A DNA stretch of 64,000 nt from Streptomyces sp. 840.1 (GTDB lineage: Bacteria > Actinomycetota > Actinomycetes > Streptomycetales > Streptomycetaceae): contig NZ_RJUU01000002.1 of NCBI RefSeq assembly GCF_003751445.1, positions 868,001 through 932,000 of the forward strand, given 5' to 3'. This document shows positions 12,867 to 19,908 of this stretch, in pieces. Both the position numbers and the translations under genes were made by a program. The notes beneath the pieces are model-generated. The model saw nothing but the letters and a program-made list of their open reading frames with translations. It made no database searches and was not told the DNA's origin. Position 1 is the first letter of the stretch. The number at the start of each line of letters is the position of its first letter.

Positions 12867-14278
12867 GCGCGAACGCCGCACCGCCGCAAGAGCGGGCCGA
12901 CCGGGAACTGCTGCGGATCGCCTTCATCCTGGTGCTCGGCACCTTCATGGCGACCCTGGACGCCACGATCGTCAGCGTCGGAATCGAGCGTCTCACCGAC
13001 GAGTTCGACGTGTCCGTCGCCGGGATCCAGTGGGTCACCACCGCCTACCTGCTGGCCGTGGTCGCCGCCGTGCCCGCGTCCGGCTGGCTGGCCGACCGGT
13101 TCGGCGGCAGGCGGACGTGGCTCGCCGCCGTGGTCGTCTTCCTGCTCGGCTCGGTGCTCTGCGCGTCGGCCTGGTCGGTGACCAGTCTGATCGTGTTCCG
13201 GGTGATCCAGGGCCTCGGCGGCGGCCTGCTGCCCGCGACCGGGCAGGCGCTGCTGGCCCGCGTCGCGGGCCCCGGCCGTACCGGGCGGGTGATCAGCGTC
13301 GTCGCGGTCGTCCCGCTGCTGTCACCGGTGTTCGGCCCGCTGGCGGGTGGCTCGATCCTCTCCGTGGCGCCCTGGCCGTGGCTGTTCCTGGTCAACCTGC
13401 CGATCGGTCTGACCGCCGCCCTGCTGGCCCGCCGCTACGTGCCGGCGGCGCCCCCGGCCAACCGGCGGACTCCGTTCGACCTGCGCGGGGCCCTGCTGCT
13501 CTCACCCGGCCTGGCCGTGCTGGTGTTCGGCCTCACCGAGGTCGCCCACGGCCGCGCCGTCCCCGCCACCGCCGGTGCCTGCGCGGGGCTGGCGATGCTC
13601 GCCGCGTTCACCGTGCACGGCCTGCGGACCCGCCGCACACCCCTGATCGACCCCCGCCTCTTCACCAGACCCCCCTTCGGCGCCGCCGCCGTCGCCCTGC
13701 TCGTCCTGGGTGCGTCGGTGTTCGGCACGATGTTCCTGCTCCCGCTCTACTTCCAGACCGGCCGAGGTATGTCGGCCTGGGCGGCCGGACTACTCCTCGC
13801 GCCACAGGGACTCGGGGCGGCGGCCGGATCGGTCCTGGTCACCCGCACCATCACCAAGGTCGCCCCCAGGACCCTGGTGGTCACCGGCATCGTGCTGATC
13901 CTCGCCGGCACCGCCCCCTTCACCCAGCTCCACCACGGCCTCCCGGACGCGGCGGTCGCCGCAACCCTCGCGGTCCGCGGTTTCGGCATGGCCATGGTCG
14001 GCGCACCCGTGATGAACATCGTCTACAGCCGCATCGAACCCGAACACCTCCCACGCGCCTCCGGCGCGCTCAACCTGCTCAACACGGTCGGCGGCTCGAT
14101 CGGCACCGCCGCCCTCGCGGTGGTCCTGCAGAACCGCCTCTCCGCCCGGGGCCCCGACATCCCCGCCGCGTTCGCCGACACCTTCTGGTGGGTCCTCGGC
14201 TGCTGCCTGTTCGCGGCGGCGGGTGCGACGAGACTGCCCGGGACGGGGGTCAGGAGGGGGGCTCCGGAGAAGTCCTGA
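12863..14278 (+). CDS. MFS exporter, DHA2/EmrB-like, probably siderophore efflux
   Basis: A 471-residue membrane transporter of the major facilitator superfamily. The N-terminus has [16 protein letters not shown] (motif of DHA2 multidrug/metabolite exporters) and [14 protein letters not shown] (motif A). Later segments are strongly hydrophobic, consistent with 12-14 helices. ATG 12863 overlaps the NRPS stop, so it is the last gene of the siderophore operon. Its position points to export of the finished siderophore, as with EntS-type exporters. Its last 29 bases overlap the convergent small gene on the other strand. Confidence 0.9.
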
Positions 14279-14732
14279 GGCCGCTGTCCGGCACCGAGGC
14301 GGCCGGATCCCGGATGTGGAGGGTGAGTCCGGTGATGTGTCCCGACTGAATCACCGGGCCCTCGTGCACACCACCGGTGATGCTGTTGTGAACGGTGACC
14401 GGGCCCGGCCCGGCGGTGTCCGTGATCCGCTGAAGCGAGGCCAGCAGTTCGCCCAGATCGTTCCCGGTGACGGCGCCGGTCCGCAGCAGCTCGTGCAGGC
14501 GGATGTGCCACTGGGCGGTGATCTCCCGGGTGGCCCGCGCGCGGTCGCGGGCGTCGGCTGCGAGCAGTGTGGCCCGTCCGGCGTCCAGCTCCGCGACCGG
14601 GGCACCGTCCGACGAGCCGCGTGCGACGAGCCGGCCGACGAGCTGACGCGCCTGCGCCCAGGCGTCGGTGACCATGAGCGAGACCAGGGTGGTTGCTCCC
14701 GCGGCGGCGAGAGCGGCCGGCTCAGCGGTCAT
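14250..14732 (-). CDS. Small protein with C-terminal RHIM-like (BASS-type) motif; last gene of TIR operon
   Basis: A 160-residue protein of unknown biochemical function. Residues 1-105 are predicted largely helical and alanine/arginine rich (TTLVSLMVTDAWAQARQLV at the start). Residues 116-135 read NSITGGVHEGPVIQSGHITG. This glycine-rich pattern with a central V-I-Q-S-G matches my memory of the bacterial amyloid signalling sequences (BASS) found in actinobacterial NLR-type proteins, which resemble the RHIM of animal necroptosis proteins. ATG 14732 overlaps the stop of the upstream membrane-protein gene by 11 bases, so it is the distal gene of the five-gene operon. A related motif sits in the TIR protein encoded first after the regulator. 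Function as a motif-bearing adaptor or receptor is inference. Confidence 0.8.
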   Translation of the reverse strand: MTAEPAALAAAGATTLVSLMVTDAWAQARQLVGRLVARGSSDGAPVAELDAGRATLLAADARDRARATREITAQWHIRLHELLRTGAVTGNDLGELLASLQRITDTAGPGPVTVHNSITGGVHEGPVIQSGHITGLTLHIRDPAASVPDSGLRTSPEPPS

Positions 14733-15834
14733 CGTTCTCCTCCCGAGGCCGTGCCGTGAACGTCGTACCGGCCCCGCCGTCGGGGGAGTCCGGGGCCGGG
14801 TCCGTAGCGTCCGGTGTGAACGTAGCCTGCGGGCCGAATCGGCTCAGCACCTCGTCAGCCGTCTCGTGCTGATCCTGAGTCCGGATGACTTCGGCCATCT
14901 GTTTCGCCAGGATCGCCCGACGGGGATCCCCGTCGGGAAAGTCCAGCGCGTTCAGCCCGTCCGCGAGAAGGTCCGCGGCCGTCGGCGGCGCTTCGAAGGG
15001 AGCGCTCCGCCCCTCCAGCAACTCCCGGAACTCCGCGTCCCCGCGCTGCCCGGGAATCAGATCGCGCAGCCGGTCAGGGACGTCGGTGTCGTTGGCCGCG
15101 GACGCGAGCCGGGCAAGAAGGCCAAGGTCGGCCACGGTCTTCTCCACATGATCATCGTTCTTGGCGAGCCACCACACCACCGCACTGCCGGTGTCCTTGA
15201 GCACGTCCTCACCCAAGTACTTGCGCTTGCTCTGTTCGTACTTGCGCTGGTGCTCCCAGACCGCCTTGTCCTTGCGCACTCCGGCGAGTCTGTCCAGGCG
15301 CTCCTGGTCGTGCTCGTGCAGGGTGAGCGTCACGTTCTCCGCCATCGCCTGGAGGTGTCCGGTGCTGTCCGGACGCATCCGGCTGAGCGCACCGCTCAGC
15401 TCGTGCTGCACGAGCGACACCCGGCCGGGCTCGCGCCACTCGGTGATCCCACGGGCCCGGTCCAGCACCGCTTCGACCGCGAGGCCCGCCGGGTTGAGCA
15501 CGGGATCGTCGTCGGATGTGTCGAAGGGGTACCAGCGAACGGTCGCTGAGATCAGGAAGTCGTAATCTGGCCAGTGACTGGGCAGGGCAATACGGCTGAC
15601 ATGGTGTTCCCTGCGCTCGACAGGAGCCGCGGTGAGCTGCTCCTCGAACGTGATCCGCGTGGGCCCGCGACGGCGCGCGGCGATCCTGAAGGCCGCGGCC
15701 GGCGCGGCGCCGAGGACCACGGCCAGGACCGGCCACGCCCACGGCGGCCACCGCTCCGTGAGACCCAGAATGGTCAGCAGCAGCCCGCACAGAACGGTGA
15801 GGAAGACAGTCGTCGTCCTGCATCCGGTTGTCAT
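14722..15834 (-). CDS. Membrane-anchored protein of unknown function in TIR operon
   Basis: A 370-residue protein I do not recognise. Two hydrophobic segments lie at the N-terminus (about residues 8-24 and 31-50), separated by ERWPPW, then a basic RIAARRRG stretch, so most of the protein is probably cytoplasmic. The soluble part has a beta-rich section (residues 60-110), a long helical charged region around residues 165-215 (HDQERLDRLAGVRKDKAVWE), and an acidic/proline-rich tail. The layout faintly recalls membrane-tethered SPFH-like proteins, but I cannot support that call. ATG 15834 overlaps the stop of the P-loop gene (ATGA). The context suggests a membrane anchor or target for the TIR system. 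Confidence 0.8.
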   Translation of the reverse strand: MTTGCRTTTVFLTVLCGLLLTILGLTERWPPWAWPVLAVVLGAAPAAAFRIAARRRGPTRITFEEQLTAAPVERREHHVSRIALPSHWPDYDFLISATVRWYPFDTSDDDPVLNPAGLAVEAVLDRARGITEWREPGRVSLVQHELSGALSRMRPDSTGHLQAMAENVTLTLHEHDQERLDRLAGVRKDKAVWEHQRKYEQSKRKYLGEDVLKDTGSAVVWWLAKNDDHVEKTVADLGLLARLASAANDTDVPDRLRDLIPGQRGDAEFRELLEGRSAPFEAPPTAADLLADGLNALDFPDGDPRRAILAKQMAEVIRTQDQHETADEVLSRFGPQATFTPDATDPAPDSPDGGAGTTFTARPREENDDR

Positions 15835-17831
15835 GATTCGGTCTCCCTCGCAGATTCCGCCTGCGGCGGTGTGGTCGGCCGGCCGAGGCCCTGCGCCGCA
15901 CAGATCTTCTGGAACAGCAGGTCAGTGGTCTCCGCGGCGCACGCGGATCCGAAGGGGGCGGTGCATTCGGCATCGCGGGCGCTCGCGTACAACGCGGCGA
16001 AAGCCGCGCCCCGGCGGCTGCCGCACCGGTCGGCCGCGTCGACGAGGACATCGAGCAGGATGCCACCGAGGCGGTCGCCGACGGCCGCCGTGTGCAGCCA
16101 GCGTCGGGCCTGCGACTGCCAGCCGCTCGGTGGCAGATCTCCCAGTACGTCCCGCCAACAGGCCGTCAAGGCGCCCCGCACGGCGCTCTCCTCGACCAAC
16201 GCGCGCCCGTTGTCGTACGGGTCGGTGAGCGGCCCCGGGGCGCAAACCGACAGGAAGATGTCGAGCTCCGCCGGTGAGAGTGCTGGGCCCGCGAGCCGGT
16301 TCAGTAACCGTCGGCGCAGTCGGTGGCTCGTGTCCACCAGCTCGCACAGCGCCCGGAGCGCATGCGTGGTGTCGGGCTCGCGGCGGGCCAGGTAGTAGAG
16401 GCGGAGCAGGGCCTGGTCGGGATGGCTCGACGCGATGACATCGGCGCACACCTGGACGAGCACTTGGGCGAACTTCCCCCGGAGCCGTCTGTTGGCGCAC
16501 CATTGATAGACCCTTTCGCGGAAGTGCCTGCCGTGCGCGGGATCGTTCAGGCCGCAGGTGAGCGCCTGCACGGCCGCCTCCAGCCCGGCGCGGCTCGCGC
16601 TGGTGGAGCTCCACTCCTCGGCGAGGGATGCCAGCTCCTCCCCGTGCGCCGTCCGCAGATACTGTCCGGCCAGCTGGGTCACCATCCCGTCGCGGAGTCC
16701 CCGGGTGACGTGTGTTCCGTCCAGGTCCACGCTGTGCGCGGTCCAGACGCCCAGATGCTGCCGCAGGTCCGGCATGTGGTCCCAGAAGTGGGTGCGGACC
16801 GCGGAGTCGTAGTCCAGTTCCGTGAACCGGACATGCCCGTCAGGTCCGGTCTCCGCGGATATCTCCGTCAGACGTTCGGCGAGGTCCCTGCGCTGGAGCA
16901 GCGGGACTTCCTCGGGCGGGGACCCGGTAACGCCCAGCAGAAGCTGGGTCGCGCGGTGGATGACGTCGGCGTGTGCGCCGTGGAGCATGGCCACGGTGAT
17001 CAGGAGGGCCCGCTGAGGGCTCTCCCGCAGACGTGCGACGAGAACGGCGACATCGTTTCGCCGGTCGGCCCGTGACCTGAGCGCGGTCGCGCACCACTGC
17101 GGGAATCCGTCGCCTGCCCGCGTTGCCCCGCGGGCCCGGCGGACAAGGTCGGCGAAGTCCGCGATCTCCCGCATCGGCCTGCGCTCGCGGAGGAAATCGT
17201 CCACGGTGGGATCGGGCCGCAGATACTGCTCGCACGGCAGACCGTGCATCCGCAGGTGCCGCCGGAAGACGTTCACGCCGGGTGGGTCATCGATCACGAC
17301 CCGGTTGCGCTGGAGGTCGGATTCCAGGACGCCGCCGTGCGGCATGACGACCACGAGACGCGCCTGCTGATCGTGCACGGCTTTACGCAGAGCGGGGAGT
17401 CCGGACCGCGCCGCAGCCCATCGAGCGGCGTCGGACGCCGACAGATCCAGCAGTAATCGGTCGCCGGATCCGACCAGACCCGGGTCCGTGAGGGACAGCT
17501 CGCCCTCCTCGCCCGGCAGGAGCTCACGGAAGACGCCGGAGTCGCGATGAGACTCGCGCAGGAGCACCCGGGCCGCGGAGGTCCGGCCGCTTCCGGGCAA
17601 GCCGTCCAGGATCACCGTGCCGGTATCGGCCAGTTCGGCACGGGCCGCGCCCATGCCGCTCGGGGCGACCAGCACTCGACGCAGCCATGTGAGCTGGTCG
17701 TCGGCGATCCGGCGGAAGGACGGCCGGCCCGGATCCCCCAGATCAGGACCGACGGTGACGTACATGTTGCCGCTGCCGGTGTGCATGGGGCCCTGTGCGC
17801 CCTCGACCCGTGTGCTGCTGCGCTCGCTCAC
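15831..17831 (-). CDS. P-loop protein with altered Walker A, TIR-operon component
   Basis: A 666-residue protein. Near the N-terminus (residues 11-26) is GAQGPMHTGSGNMYVT, a glycine/HTG motif that recurs in the TIR protein encoded just upstream. A P-loop follows at residues 77-84 (GLPGSGRT), where the usual lysine is arginine. The later strands DRLLLDLSAS and RLVVVMPHGG do not give a normal acidic Walker B, so nucleotide hydrolysis is doubtful. The remaining 450 residues are helical and arginine rich with no domain I recognise, possibly a helical-repeat sensor. The GTG start overlaps the TIR stop (GTGA) and the stop overlaps the next start (ATGA). A sensor or scaffold role is inference from position and motif sharing. 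Confidence 0.85.
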   Translation of the reverse strand: MSERSSTRVEGAQGPMHTGSGNMYVTVGPDLGDPGRPSFRRIADDQLTWLRRVLVAPSGMGAARAELADTGTVILDGLPGSGRTSAARVLLRESHRDSGVFRELLPGEEGELSLTDPGLVGSGDRLLLDLSASDAARWAAARSGLPALRKAVHDQQARLVVVMPHGGVLESDLQRNRVVIDDPPGVNVFRRHLRMHGLPCEQYLRPDPTVDDFLRERRPMREIADFADLVRRARGATRAGDGFPQWCATALRSRADRRNDVAVLVARLRESPQRALLITVAMLHGAHADVIHRATQLLLGVTGSPPEEVPLLQRRDLAERLTEISAETGPDGHVRFTELDYDSAVRTHFWDHMPDLRQHLGVWTAHSVDLDGTHVTRGLRDGMVTQLAGQYLRTAHGEELASLAEEWSSTSASRAGLEAAVQALTCGLNDPAHGRHFRERVYQWCANRRLRGKFAQVLVQVCADVIASSHPDQALLRLYYLARREPDTTHALRALCELVDTSHRLRRRLLNRLAGPALSPAELDIFLSVCAPGPLTDPYDNGRALVEESAVRGALTACWRDVLGDLPPSGWQSQARRWLHTAAVGDRLGGILLDVLVDAADRCGSRRGAAFAALYASARDAECTAPFGSACAAETTDLLFQKICAAQGLGRPTTPPQAESARETES

Positions 17832-18583
17832 CGAACGTCGTCCTCGCGCCGGTCCGGTTCGCCGAAGCGGTGCTGGATGCCGCCGTGCTGGTCGCCTTCG
17901 AAGTACGTCATCCCGTTGCCGGAGAAGTGCCGTCCGCCCGAGTCGTGGCGGGAGTTCTGGTAGATGTCGCCGTGACCCGTGTGGACCGGTCCGCCCGCGC
18001 CTTTGACGACGGTGTTGCCGACGTCTCCGGTGAAGTCGCGGCTCTGGACGGCCGTTCCGCTCACGTCCCCGACCGTGTTCACCACGGAGTCGGGAACGAG
18101 CGAGGCGGCGTCGTCCAGGTCCAGGTCGTGCAGTCCGGGGACCATGTCGGCCACCACATCACCGAGACGTTTCAGCCCGGCCCCGGTGTCCTGTGTACTG
18201 AACGCGATGGACTGGAGGTCTGCGAGCCGGGCCAGTTCGCCGGGCAGGTCCTTCTTGCTGAGCCGGTCCGTCTTGCGGCCGTCCAGTACGGGAACGACCG
18301 GAAGCTCACGGGCGAACGCCTCGACGAGCTCCCGGCGCACCCAGTCCTGCGGATCGCGCAGCCGCTCGCGGAAGTTCGTCCAGTCGGGGCCGATGACCGC
18401 CAGGAGTACGCTGCTGCGCCGCAGGCCGTTCAGCAGGTCGTCGGGGTAGGGCCGACCGGGTGCGACGGACTTCGAGGCCCGGAAGATCCGTCCGCTTCCG
18501 AAGCGGCGCGAGAGCTCCTGGTCGATCAGGGCGGCGGTCTTCTCGCCGTCCCCCGTGCGGTAGTTGATGAAGACGTCGGTCAT
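17828..18583 (-). CDS. TIR-domain protein with RHIM-like and HTG motif tail
   Basis: A 251-residue protein. Residues 1-155 form a TIR domain: MTDVFINYRTGDGEKTA at the first strand, IFRASKSVAPGRPYPD, LLAVIGPDW, then DWVRRELVEAF, whose glutamate at about residue 85 lies where TIR NADases keep the catalytic Glu. The tail is low-complexity and glycine rich. Residues 171-186 (VGDVSGTAVQSRDFTG) resemble a BASS/RHIM-type motif, and 196-210 (AGGPVHTGHGDIYQN) match the N-terminal motif of the P-loop protein. I chose ATG 18583 because it begins directly at the TIR fold and follows GAGAGG by a suitable gap. NAD cleavage on assembly is the expected activity of such TIRs, but is inferred. Confidence 0.9.
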   Translation of the reverse strand: MTDVFINYRTGDGEKTAALIDQELSRRFGSGRIFRASKSVAPGRPYPDDLLNGLRRSSVLLAVIGPDWTNFRERLRDPQDWVRRELVEAFARELPVVPVLDGRKTDRLSKKDLPGELARLADLQSIAFSTQDTGAGLKRLGDVVADMVPGLHDLDLDDAASLVPDSVVNTVGDVSGTAVQSRDFTGDVGNTVVKGAGGPVHTGHGDIYQNSRHDSGGRHFSGNGMTYFEGDQHGGIQHRFGEPDRREDDVR

Positions 18584-18597
18584 GACGATGCCTCTCT

Positions 18598-19908
18598 TCA
18601 AGAAGTGGGAAGGCGTGACAACGTGCCGAGCCGGGGGCCCAGCCGGCGCACCGATGCGTGATCGGAGTGGCGGGCCAGTACGCGGGCGAGGCGGTGGAGG
18701 TCGATCGTGATGGTCGCGGAACGGATGGTCGCCACCCCGTCCAGCAGGGGTGCCGTCAACGCACAGGCGTGGTCGATCTCGCCGTTCGACGCGTAGGCGA
18801 GTGCCCTGCGGACGCCGTACCGTGCCTGGGTACGCAGCGCGTCGCCGGAGACCAGGGAGAGCTGCCGGTCGAGCTCCTCGGCAGCCTGGCCGGGCCGGCC
18901 GAGGTCGACCAGGCACCAGCCGGTGACCATTCCGACTGAATCGGGCAGATGCATGCTGCCGATCACCGTCGCGTCGGGGCTGCCCTCGTCAGCGGCGAGC
19001 AGCGCACGGGCGCGGTCCAGCGCACGCAGACAGGCCCGGTGGTCACCCGCAAGCGCGTGCCCCTGCGCTTCCCGCTGCGCAGCCAGTCCGCGGATCCGCG
19101 GTGGCAGCGTGCCGCTCTGGGCCCGCCGGGCCAGGGCCACCGTCTGCTCGGCGTTGTCCTGGTACAGCGTGATCAACGCCCTGCGGACCAGCGCGTAGCC
19201 TGCCAGCGCCGGGTCACCGCCGGCGGCCGCGAGGTCCACCGCGCGCTGCGTCCACCACAGCGCCGCCTGTTCGTCTCCCGACTCCTGGGCGAGCCAGCCG
19301 ATGTACTCGGCGTATCGCGAGGCGAGTTCAAGCAGCTCGCGGCGGGTGGTGCCGTCGGAGTGCGCGGACAGTTCCCGCAACGTGTGGGTCTGTGCGATCA
19401 GAGCGGGCAGCAGGAATCCGGGCTGGACGCTCTGGCCCAGTCGCCGGTAGTGCGTGAACAGCGAGCGGGACGCCTCCAGCATTCCGATGCCCGCGGCCGG
19501 GGTGGCCGGGCCCTGGCCACCAAGACCCAGCCGCATCAACGAGGCGGCGCCCGCGCCCACGACCTGTCGCCGCCCCAAGGGCCGGAACTGGCCCCTGCCT
19601 TCCGGTGACAGCTGCATGATCCAATCCTCCTCATCGACTTCTCCTGGCACGGCGTCGACCGGTGTGCCGGCAACGGCTGGGGTGCCGAGGGCGTTCAGCG
19701 CGCCGTCGGCCTTCAGAGCGGCGTCGCACAGCCGGACGAGATCGCGGCTGGGCGGCTTGATGCCTCGTTCGACCTTGCTCAGCTGAGCCTTGCTGTAGTG
19801 AACGGCGGCAGACATTGCTGTGAGGCTGAGTCCGGCGTCCAGGCGACGCCTCCTCAGCTCCTCACCGAACTCGGTGGACGGCTGGGGCACGGGAACCTCC
19901 ATAACCAT
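18598..19908 (-). CDS. XRE-family regulator with TPR-like C-terminus; first gene of TIR operon
   Basis: A 436-residue DNA-binding protein. An XRE helix-turn-helix spans residues 12-68 (EELRRRRLDAGLSLTAMSAAV, then SKAQLSKVERGIKPPS). The rest is helical with alanine-rich repeats of the TPR-like kind (WTQRAVDLAAAGGDPALAGY, and ALDRARALLAADEG), as is common in large Streptomyces XRE proteins. The start may be ATG 19908 or ATG 19902. The stop is only 14 bases before the TIR start, so the regulator heads the operon and probably controls it. A 7-4-7 palindrome about 80 bases upstream of the start is a candidate binding site. Confidence 0.88.
   Translation of the reverse strand: MVMEVPVPQPSTEFGEELRRRRLDAGLSLTAMSAAVHYSKAQLSKVERGIKPPSRDLVRLCDAALKADGALNALGTPAVAGTPVDAVPGEVDEEDWIMQLSPEGRGQFRPLGRRQVVGAGAASLMRLGLGGQGPATPAAGIGMLEASRSLFTHYRRLGQSVQPGFLLPALIAQTHTLRELSAHSDGTTRRELLELASRYAEYIGWLAQESGDEQAALWWTQRAVDLAAAGGDPALAGYALVRRALITLYQDNAEQTVALARRAQSGTLPPRIRGLAAQREAQGHALAGDHRACLRALDRARALLAADEGSPDATVIGSMHLPDSVGMVTGWCLVDLGRPGQAAEELDRQLSLVSGDALRTQARYGVRRALAYASNGEIDHACALTAPLLDGVATIRSATITIDLHRLARVLARHSDHASVRRLGPRLGTLSRLPTS

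Follow-up and report, generated by a model that had tools for sequence, protein, structure and literature searches.

Organization of the operon

The window analyzed in this study is a 64,000-nucleotide stretch of the 8.84 Mb genome of Streptomyces sp. 840.1 (contig NZ_RJUU01000002.1, positions 868,001 to 932,000), and our subject is an operon of five minus-strand genes that runs from position 19908 to position 14250 of the window and encodes an XRE regulator, a TIR protein, a P-loop protein, a membrane protein, and a small protein, in that order. An earlier note on this DNA had read the five genes as one functional unit and a candidate undescribed immune or cell-death system; its coordinates were matched exactly on re-reading, as were the 14-base gap that follows the first gene and the successive overlaps of 4, 4, and 11 bases. 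Comparisons of relatives of these genes demonstrated that a short motif is paired, locus by locus, between the C-terminal tail of the TIR protein and the N-terminal tail of the P-loop protein, and that other putative effectors take the place of the TIR protein in more distant relatives. All features given below lie on the minus strand, and loci from other genomes are designated by L numbers.

The TIR protein gene (17828..18583, 251 aa) encodes a domain at residues 4-140 (18164..18574) that matched PF13676 above the cut-off (E 1e-7), and the best matches of a phmmer search of the PDB were to the TIR domain of the NAD+ hydrolase SARM1 (E 8e-6). The catalytic-type glutamate named in the earlier note, Glu85, was located in W81-V-R-R-E85 (18329-18343), and this WxxxE signature was present in 65/68 TIR-type rows, the misses being a locus that has lost the TIR domain (L045), one that was cut short in gene picking (L061), and one with a non-TIR effector (L118). 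These matches point to a TIR fold with a conserved catalytic-type glutamate and to a possible NADase. Two motifs were recognized in the tail: a motif A-like stretch at residues 169-189 (18017..18079), whose general class is shared by the small-protein motif, and, at residues 198-209 (17957..17992), the sequence GPVHTGHGDIYQ, hereafter the TIR copy of motif B.

The P-loop protein gene (15831..17831, 666 aa) matched PF20720 (nSTAND3) at an E value of 0.0085, under the cut-off, and the same family was matched in 64/64 aligned P-loop sequences at E values of up to 1 (best 1.3e-6). The structural model (predicted local distance difference test score, pLDDT, of 84) begins with a disordered tail at residues 1-36 (pLDDT <50), continues with a predicted AAA+/STAND NTPase fold at residues 38-255 (17067..17720), and then forms a long helical repeat, with a predicted alpha-solenoid region at residues 340-650 (15882..16814); Foldseek matches of the model included several helical-repeat proteins. 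The receptor copy of motif B, GPMHTGSGNMYV, occupies residues 14-25 (17757..17792) within the predicted disordered tail. The Walker A motif is degenerate, reading GLPGSGRT (17580..17603) with Arg83 in place of the lysine; the arginine was invariant in 64/64 aligned sequences, and a pattern search recovered it at the Walker A position in 54/68 rows; in the remaining rows the pattern misread the sequence or no clear Walker A was present. The description in the earlier note, a P-loop protein, was right as to gene and position and can be refined, as the protein looks like a NOD-like receptor (NLR), with an nSTAND3-like domain, helical repeats, and a degenerate Walker A.

The membrane protein gene (14722..15834, 370 aa) encodes two hydrophobic segments (residues 8-26 and 35-53), in agreement with the two-helix membrane protein of the earlier note. 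A fold search on its model indicated an SPFH (stomatin/prohibitin) fold, predicted to span residues 71-207 (15214..15624), which refines that description; the model was modest (pLDDT 71; predicted template modeling score 0.38), with ten-residue blocks between residues 71 and 190 at 72-92. We claim SPFH as a fold only, since a Band_7 sequence match was not obtained: Pfam Band_7 gave no match in the window protein at E values of up to 10 and did not occur among the 25 Pfam families listed, of 34 in all, for 64 members of the membrane-protein family. One homologue was named 'Band 7' in one source.

The first gene of the operon (18598..19908, 436 aa) encodes a TPR-like regulator of the XRE/NsdA family, which scored 185.2 bits with NCBIfam NF053720 (NsdA-family; cut-off 75) and also matched HTH_31. 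The last gene (14250..14732, 160 aa) encodes the small protein, in which a hydrophobic segment at residues 6-24 has a Kyte-Doolittle mean of 1.45, below the usual threshold for a transmembrane helix, and a C-terminal motif at residues 116-138 (14319..14387) is conserved in the alignment of the family.

Conservation and distribution of the block

The P-loop family was used to scan 84,980 species, each represented by one genome, and 42 loci were returned; L073 was left out given that its match spanned 25 residues, resulting in 41 usable loci. The XRE, TIR, P-loop, and membrane genes stood in the same order in 41/41 of these, more than chance would give, and the small gene was matched in 33 (in L043 over 40 residues only). 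Among 51 overlap rows, in which two genomes were counted twice, the overlap was 4 bases in 49 for TIR/P-loop and in 44 for P-loop/membrane. The unit comprises these four genes and, optionally, a fifth. The conserved block and its kept overlaps bear out the single functional unit of the earlier note, which had proposed to look in other genomes for a four-gene block downstream of an XRE gene. In one locus (L045:6917-8001), the XRE and TIR genes are truncated remnants, and the motif-bearing tail of the TIR protein and the downstream genes are kept.

Within Streptomyces, P-loop matches were found in 81/246 genomes, and matches of at least 150 bits in 53/246 as counted from the listed rows. Class-wide, the P-loop protein was matched in 30/394 genomes and 12/137 genera, and a phylum-wide search with the SPFH alignment, in which five candidates were scored per genome, recovered 2/396 genomes. 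The membrane protein was matched in 13/41 genomes, the window's own included; 10 of the other 12 contained the full block, one match lay at a contig end (L030), and one stood alone (L029). Several distant loci (L116, L117, L119-L121) held TIR, P-loop, and SPFH genes together, and the XRE gene can lie on the opposite strand. From the Streptomyces scan we also hand-picked 40 previously unused loci, 20 strong and 20 distant, 35 of which were usable (L224, L225, L226, L229, and L232 were not). In all 20 strong loci of this fresh set, the TIR gene lay upstream of the P-loop gene with a 4-base overlap and an SPFH gene was present, and the XRE gene was found in 18/20, with one of the misses at a contig end.

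Pairing of motif B between the TIR and receptor tails

The alignments contained a short motif, G-x-V-H-T-G-x-G-D-I-Y, in the C-terminal tail of the TIR proteins that recurs in the N-terminal tail of the P-loop proteins. A fixed pattern for this motif, composed after the sequences had been seen, matched 63/68 TIR tails and 55/68 P-loop tails, with both tails matched in 53 loci, and matched background proteins of the same regions in 2/725 and 2/725 cases; the rows excluded from this count were L073, the duplicates L056 and L053 (of L019 and L020, respectively), and L029 and L030, which have no TIR or P-loop gene. Changes in the motif tend to affect both genes: L025, L112, L114, and L115 share VN-G--[HP]QY forms, and in L119 and L121 the motif is doubled in both.

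Local alignment of TIR tails with P-loop tails yielded a mean score of 53.0 for pairs from the same locus, 43.3 for pairs from different loci, and 24.9 for shuffled sequences (n = 62; L111, L045, L061, L068, L069, and L118 were left out). After clustering at 60% TIR identity, 13 representatives still scored higher with their own partners (65.2) than when partners were permuted (46.2, sd 2.8; 0/20,000 permutations), and at each of three clustering levels (42, 25, or 13 clusters) the mean for own partners exceeded all 20,000 permutations. The fresh loci, scored in the same terms, gave 65.4 against 49.4 for the TIR loci (0/20,000 permutations, n = 20) and 54.4 against 42.2 for the loci with cyclase-like partners described below (1/20,000, n = 15). 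Together, these sequence comparisons demonstrate that the pairing of motif B between the TIR protein and the receptor is specific to the locus.

A corresponding link between the TIR protein and the small protein of the same locus was rejected, as no clustering level was specific. TIR and small-protein motifs scored 32.7 for own pairs, 32.3 for cross pairs, and 22.6 for shuffled sequences, and own pairs exceeded 99% of their shuffles in 8/32. Given this lack of locus specificity, the idea of a relay from the TIR protein to the small protein rests on general motif resemblance only.

Effector exchange among relatives of the receptor

In distant relatives of the P-loop protein, the upstream partner was a cyclase-like protein (L118, L123, L125, L126, L128, L130, L131, and L133) or, in L135, a Bell-like protein in the place of the TIR protein. 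These receptors scored 37-346 bits with the P-loop model, with L130 at 27 bits in the class-wide scan. The swapped effectors again possessed tails that match the receptor, and the matching sequence was in most cases quite unlike motif B, which L118 retains. Across the nine distant pairs, own partners scored 73.6 against 40.9 for permuted ones (0/20,000), and the own partner was the best in 7/9 (6/9 on a composition-corrected score). The matches of L128 and L135 were weak, and L133 does not support the pairing because its best alignment was of low complexity (z 0.1). For this test, L129 was left out, as a distance of 3,520 bases separated its picked genes, and we shortened the overlong receptor frame of L118 by hand, removing 300 residues. 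The usable distant loci of the fresh set had a cyclase-like partner in 15/15 cases, and SPFH and XRE genes were found in 0/20 of the distant fresh loci. These gene neighborhoods and tail matches demonstrate, at the level of sequence, an exchange of effectors among relatives of the receptor.

We call these proteins cyclase-like from a profile match to the cyclase 3mr7 (E 4e-4) and from invariant Asp and Gly-Asp positions, and any cyclase activity is putative; a Pfam scan of seven of them detected no cyclase domain. In L118 and L126 the cyclase-like effector occurs with both a P-loop gene and a gene of the SPFH family (161 and 48 bits). The former locus (L118:5161-8411) carries a cyclase-like effector with the same motif B, a P-loop protein, and an SPFH protein, and is a naturally occurring hybrid between the TIR and cyclase-like branches.

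The neighborhoods of small-protein relatives bear on the optional fifth gene. The domain or motif of this protein was matched in 77/121 Streptomyces genomes, a count that includes matches to the motif portion alone. Among 20 neighborhoods compared, the domain and motif were fused to NTPase-TPR proteins in four (L178-L181) and stood beside such a protein in four others (L173, L175, L176, and L182), and six of these eight NTPase-TPR proteins matched NB-ARC above the cut-off. Seven (L168, L169, L171, L172, L174, L177, and L184) had the small gene with no obvious NLR within 400 bases, among neighbors that were not Pfam-scanned; L167 and L170 had weak motif matches only, and in L166, L183, and L185 the small gene was not found by the gene picker. 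A weak small-protein-like gene (16.8 bits) was also observed on the opposite strand upstream of the TIR operon in L113 (L113:10698-11207). The Bell domain has been described as paired with NLRs (PMC7889193), and we accordingly regard the fifth protein as a candidate Bell-like domain plus motif, an assignment made from its NLR context. The motif-bearing small protein of the earlier note is therefore retained as to gene and motif and refined to an optional, putatively Bell-like protein.

Proposed mechanism

We give about an even chance to the interpretation that the operon is an NLR-like signaling system wired by paired tags and working as follows. The nSTAND/alpha-solenoid protein would be the sensor and would oligomerize on detecting its trigger, whereupon the motif in its disordered N-terminal tail would template the matching motif of the TIR C-terminal tail. 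The clustered TIR domains would then switch on and cleave NAD+, which may halt or kill the hyphal compartment. An oligomeric membrane platform for the assembly might be provided by the SPFH protein, the NsdA-type regulator would set the expression of the operon, and the optional Bell-like protein could be a second, membrane-directed effector. The folds in this scheme are predicted, and we infer the binding of motif to motif, the amyloid-like assembly, the NADase activity, the fatal outcome for the cell, and what the SPFH and Bell-like proteins contribute. It is plausible that the operon serves in immunity or cell death, as had been suggested earlier.

Several observations weigh against this interpretation. 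The Walker A of the receptor is not canonical; NB-ARC did not occur among the 25 Pfam families listed, of 29 in all, for the P-loop relatives, and NACHT was matched in just 2/64 of them (best E 0.18). The pattern of motif B was absent from 13/68 P-loop N-termini: in L045, L046, L048-L050, L052, and L058, a VTVTGPG-type variant of the receptor motif stands beside a VHTG-type TIR motif, L068 and L069 were truncated in gene picking, and in L021, L108, L111, and L120 the motif is changed or absent. It was likewise absent from 5/68 TIR tails (L021, L045, L061, L111, and L117), of which L045 and L061 are cut short and L117 is a near miss. Own pairs exceeded 99% of their shuffles in 52/62 loci and not in all, and in the fresh set the own partner was the single best in just 10/35, because relatives share motifs; the permutations of that set also ignore relatedness, and several of its members are near relatives. 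The TIR domain has been lost and the motif kept in L045, and in L029 (L029:9055-10221) an SPFH homologue stands alone, unaccompanied by TIR, P-loop, or XRE genes. The latter may be a remnant, since a GTPase-type gene near it, which we take to be ychF-like, is also present near the full operon in L025.

At a more tentative level, short of an even chance, the operon may represent a class of 'barcoded' alarm circuits in Streptomyces, in which an nSTAND receptor that is independent of a canonical P-loop and an interchangeable enzyme (TIR, class-III-cyclase-like, or Bell-like) are joined by a self-assembly tag that is private to the pair and evolves fast. The TIR branch would assemble on a membrane cage of SPFH protein and could pass the signal on, by way of a further tag, to a Bell-like protein as second effector. 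If true, several such circuits could coexist in one cell without cross-talk, and the tags would constitute a testable code, as exchanging them should re-route signaling among operons. Amyloid-type immune wiring, with its NB-ARC/NACHT receptors and Bell effectors, would then extend to nSTAND-like receptors whose enzymes can be swapped, and it would gain an SPFH partner in the membrane. A search rule is also suggested, whereby matching tails of overlapping genes could identify receptor-effector pairs whose domains no library recognizes.

Alternative explanations

The strongest alternative is that the motif recruits a synthase of a nucleotide signal, whether TIR or cyclase-like, to the activated sensor, and that a further protein, perhaps the two-transmembrane SPFH protein, reads the signal, as in Thoeris or Pycsar, so that NAD+ depletion is not the killing step. 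We regard this as a serious possibility, somewhat under even: cyclase-like proteins with a profile match to 3mr7 hold the TIR position throughout the usable distant fresh loci, L118 and L126 join such an effector with P-loop and SPFH-family genes, and TIR domains make nucleotide signals according to Kaur et al. (PMC7159879). Set against it are the lack of SPFH genes in the distant fresh loci, the negative Pfam result for a cyclase domain, and the fact that a dedicated signal-binding domain was not recognized in the operon in Pfam and NCBIfam scans.

Another alternative leaves the rest of the scheme unchanged and differs in the nature of the contact, with the tags pairing homotypically as a short beta-strand or peptide and no amyloid templating. 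The evidence for pairing is sequence similarity, the motifs are short and glycine-rich, and the model shows a disordered receptor tail, all of which would suit simple docking; the placement of the motifs and the gene order are those of bacterial amyloid signaling sequence (BASS) systems, one of which, BASS3, is reported to form fibrils or foci (PMC7885112, PMC9815663), and we consider docking rather unlikely.

A developmental or housekeeping function, in which an NsdA-controlled membrane-microdomain module tunes NAD metabolism during differentiation and is unrelated to phage, is less probable again and in our judgment unlikely. In its favor are the NsdA-family membership of the regulator and the position of one branch of the operon, which in nine loci (L021, L022, L023, L105, L198, L199, L201, L203, and L205) is flanked by genes that we take to be metK (S-adenosylmethionine synthetase) and priA; in L024, L030, L197, and L202, metK alone was seen beside the operon, as the contig or stretch ends there. 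The signal for a defense island was also not clear, a point noted against our preferred interpretation as well. We compared 110 flanking proteins (of 219 non-duplicate ones) with 110 controls (of 185) from 20 hand-picked stretches, leaving out proteins shorter than 120 aa, longer than 700 aa, or cut by an end, and in this small and crude comparison the flanking proteins matched 52 PADLOC families at E values of up to 1e-10 and the controls 6. The 25 flank families listed were mostly PD-T4-6 models with one member each, along with mad2 (3), GajB (2), and RTasHel (2). On the other side are the patchy presence of the receptor in Streptomyces, as judged from the matches of at least 150 bits, and the effector swapping and NLR architecture, which are typical of conflict systems.

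That the two motif copies were homogenized by local duplication or conversion, such that their match is an artefact, is very improbable: the copies lie just 164 bases apart in the window and identical codons are in slight excess at identical motif residues (644/1142 in 101 pairs, against 559 expected from codon use), but in the window codon sharing was 5/13 against 6.0 expected, the mean nucleotide identity of the aligned motif blocks was 0.61, and motif matching persists with unrelated effectors. Codon agreement this near to expectation indicates a match that is maintained mainly in the protein sequence. Its slight excess makes occasional local gene conversion possible, a further point to be held against the tag-wired interpretation.

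In the window the operon is not at the metK-priA site and adjoins an NRPS (nonribosomal peptide synthetase)/MFS (major facilitator superfamily) cluster, and the host genome contains four further TIR-domain regions (L001-L004, in C1:562611-574124 and C2:71217-76851) with frames of 478-1334 aa.

Comparison with known systems

The earlier note had recognized no named system in this gene set, and our scans of the five proteins named none either: PADLOC returned weak matches only, all to the XRE protein, and NCBIfam nothing above the cut-off except for the regulator. Among the top-ranked papers of the literature surveyed, which covered few subscription journals, we found none that describes this gene set or the combination of an nSTAND3-like receptor with SPFH and NsdA genes and effector swapping. 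The claim of an undescribed system accordingly stands for the gene set and falls for its principle, since the coupling of TIR and NLR proteins through a BASS motif is mentioned in PMC7889193.

The operon resembles Pycsar in the class-III-cyclase-like partner of the distant P-loop relatives and differs from it in that these cyclase-like proteins pair with an nSTAND-like protein; PADLOC, run on eight of them, gave no Pycsar match and no system, with one weak JetA match (E 0.013). With Thoeris (ThsA/ThsB) and the type III ThcB4 it shares a TIR enzyme as a signaling component, and none of the Thoeris models exceeded its cut-off in the five proteins (ThcB4: E 0.018, 13.9 bits, cut-off 220). The NTP-dependent conflict systems of multicellular prokaryotes, as described by Kaur et al. 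2020 (PMC7159879), also combine STAND-like NTPases, TIR effectors, inactive iSTAND components, and modular effectors; our block differs in having no MoxR or vWA family match, and the words SPFH and band-7 occur in that article only in the reference list. Avs5 (AVAST type 5) is similar in linking an nSTAND3-type NTPase with helical repeats to NAD+ cleavage, and its Sir2-like domain resides in the same protein (PMC12931631). In the operon, the TIR protein is encoded by a separate gene, is coupled by a motif, and is accompanied by an SPFH-like protein; a Sir2 match was not found in the window's P-loop protein at E values of up to 10, its N-terminus being the 36-residue disordered tail.

The closest precedent is offered by BASS systems, in which the effector gene adjoins or overlaps the NLR gene and matching motifs lie at the C-terminus of the effector and the N-terminus of the receptor (PMC7889193, PMC9815663, PMC8086366, and PMC12261475); TIR and NLR proteins joined by a motif are a rarer form of this signaling (PMC7889193). 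The operon shares the overlap of its effector and NLR-like genes (4 bases for TIR/P-loop in the great majority of rows) and the positions of the paired motif, a likeness that rests on gene arrangement and motif position and not on the motif sequences of BASS1-10. It differs in its nSTAND3-like receptor with an arginine Walker A, in the SPFH-like gene and NsdA-type regulator that belong to the block, and in an effector slot that is held here by TIR, cyclase-like, or Bell-like proteins.

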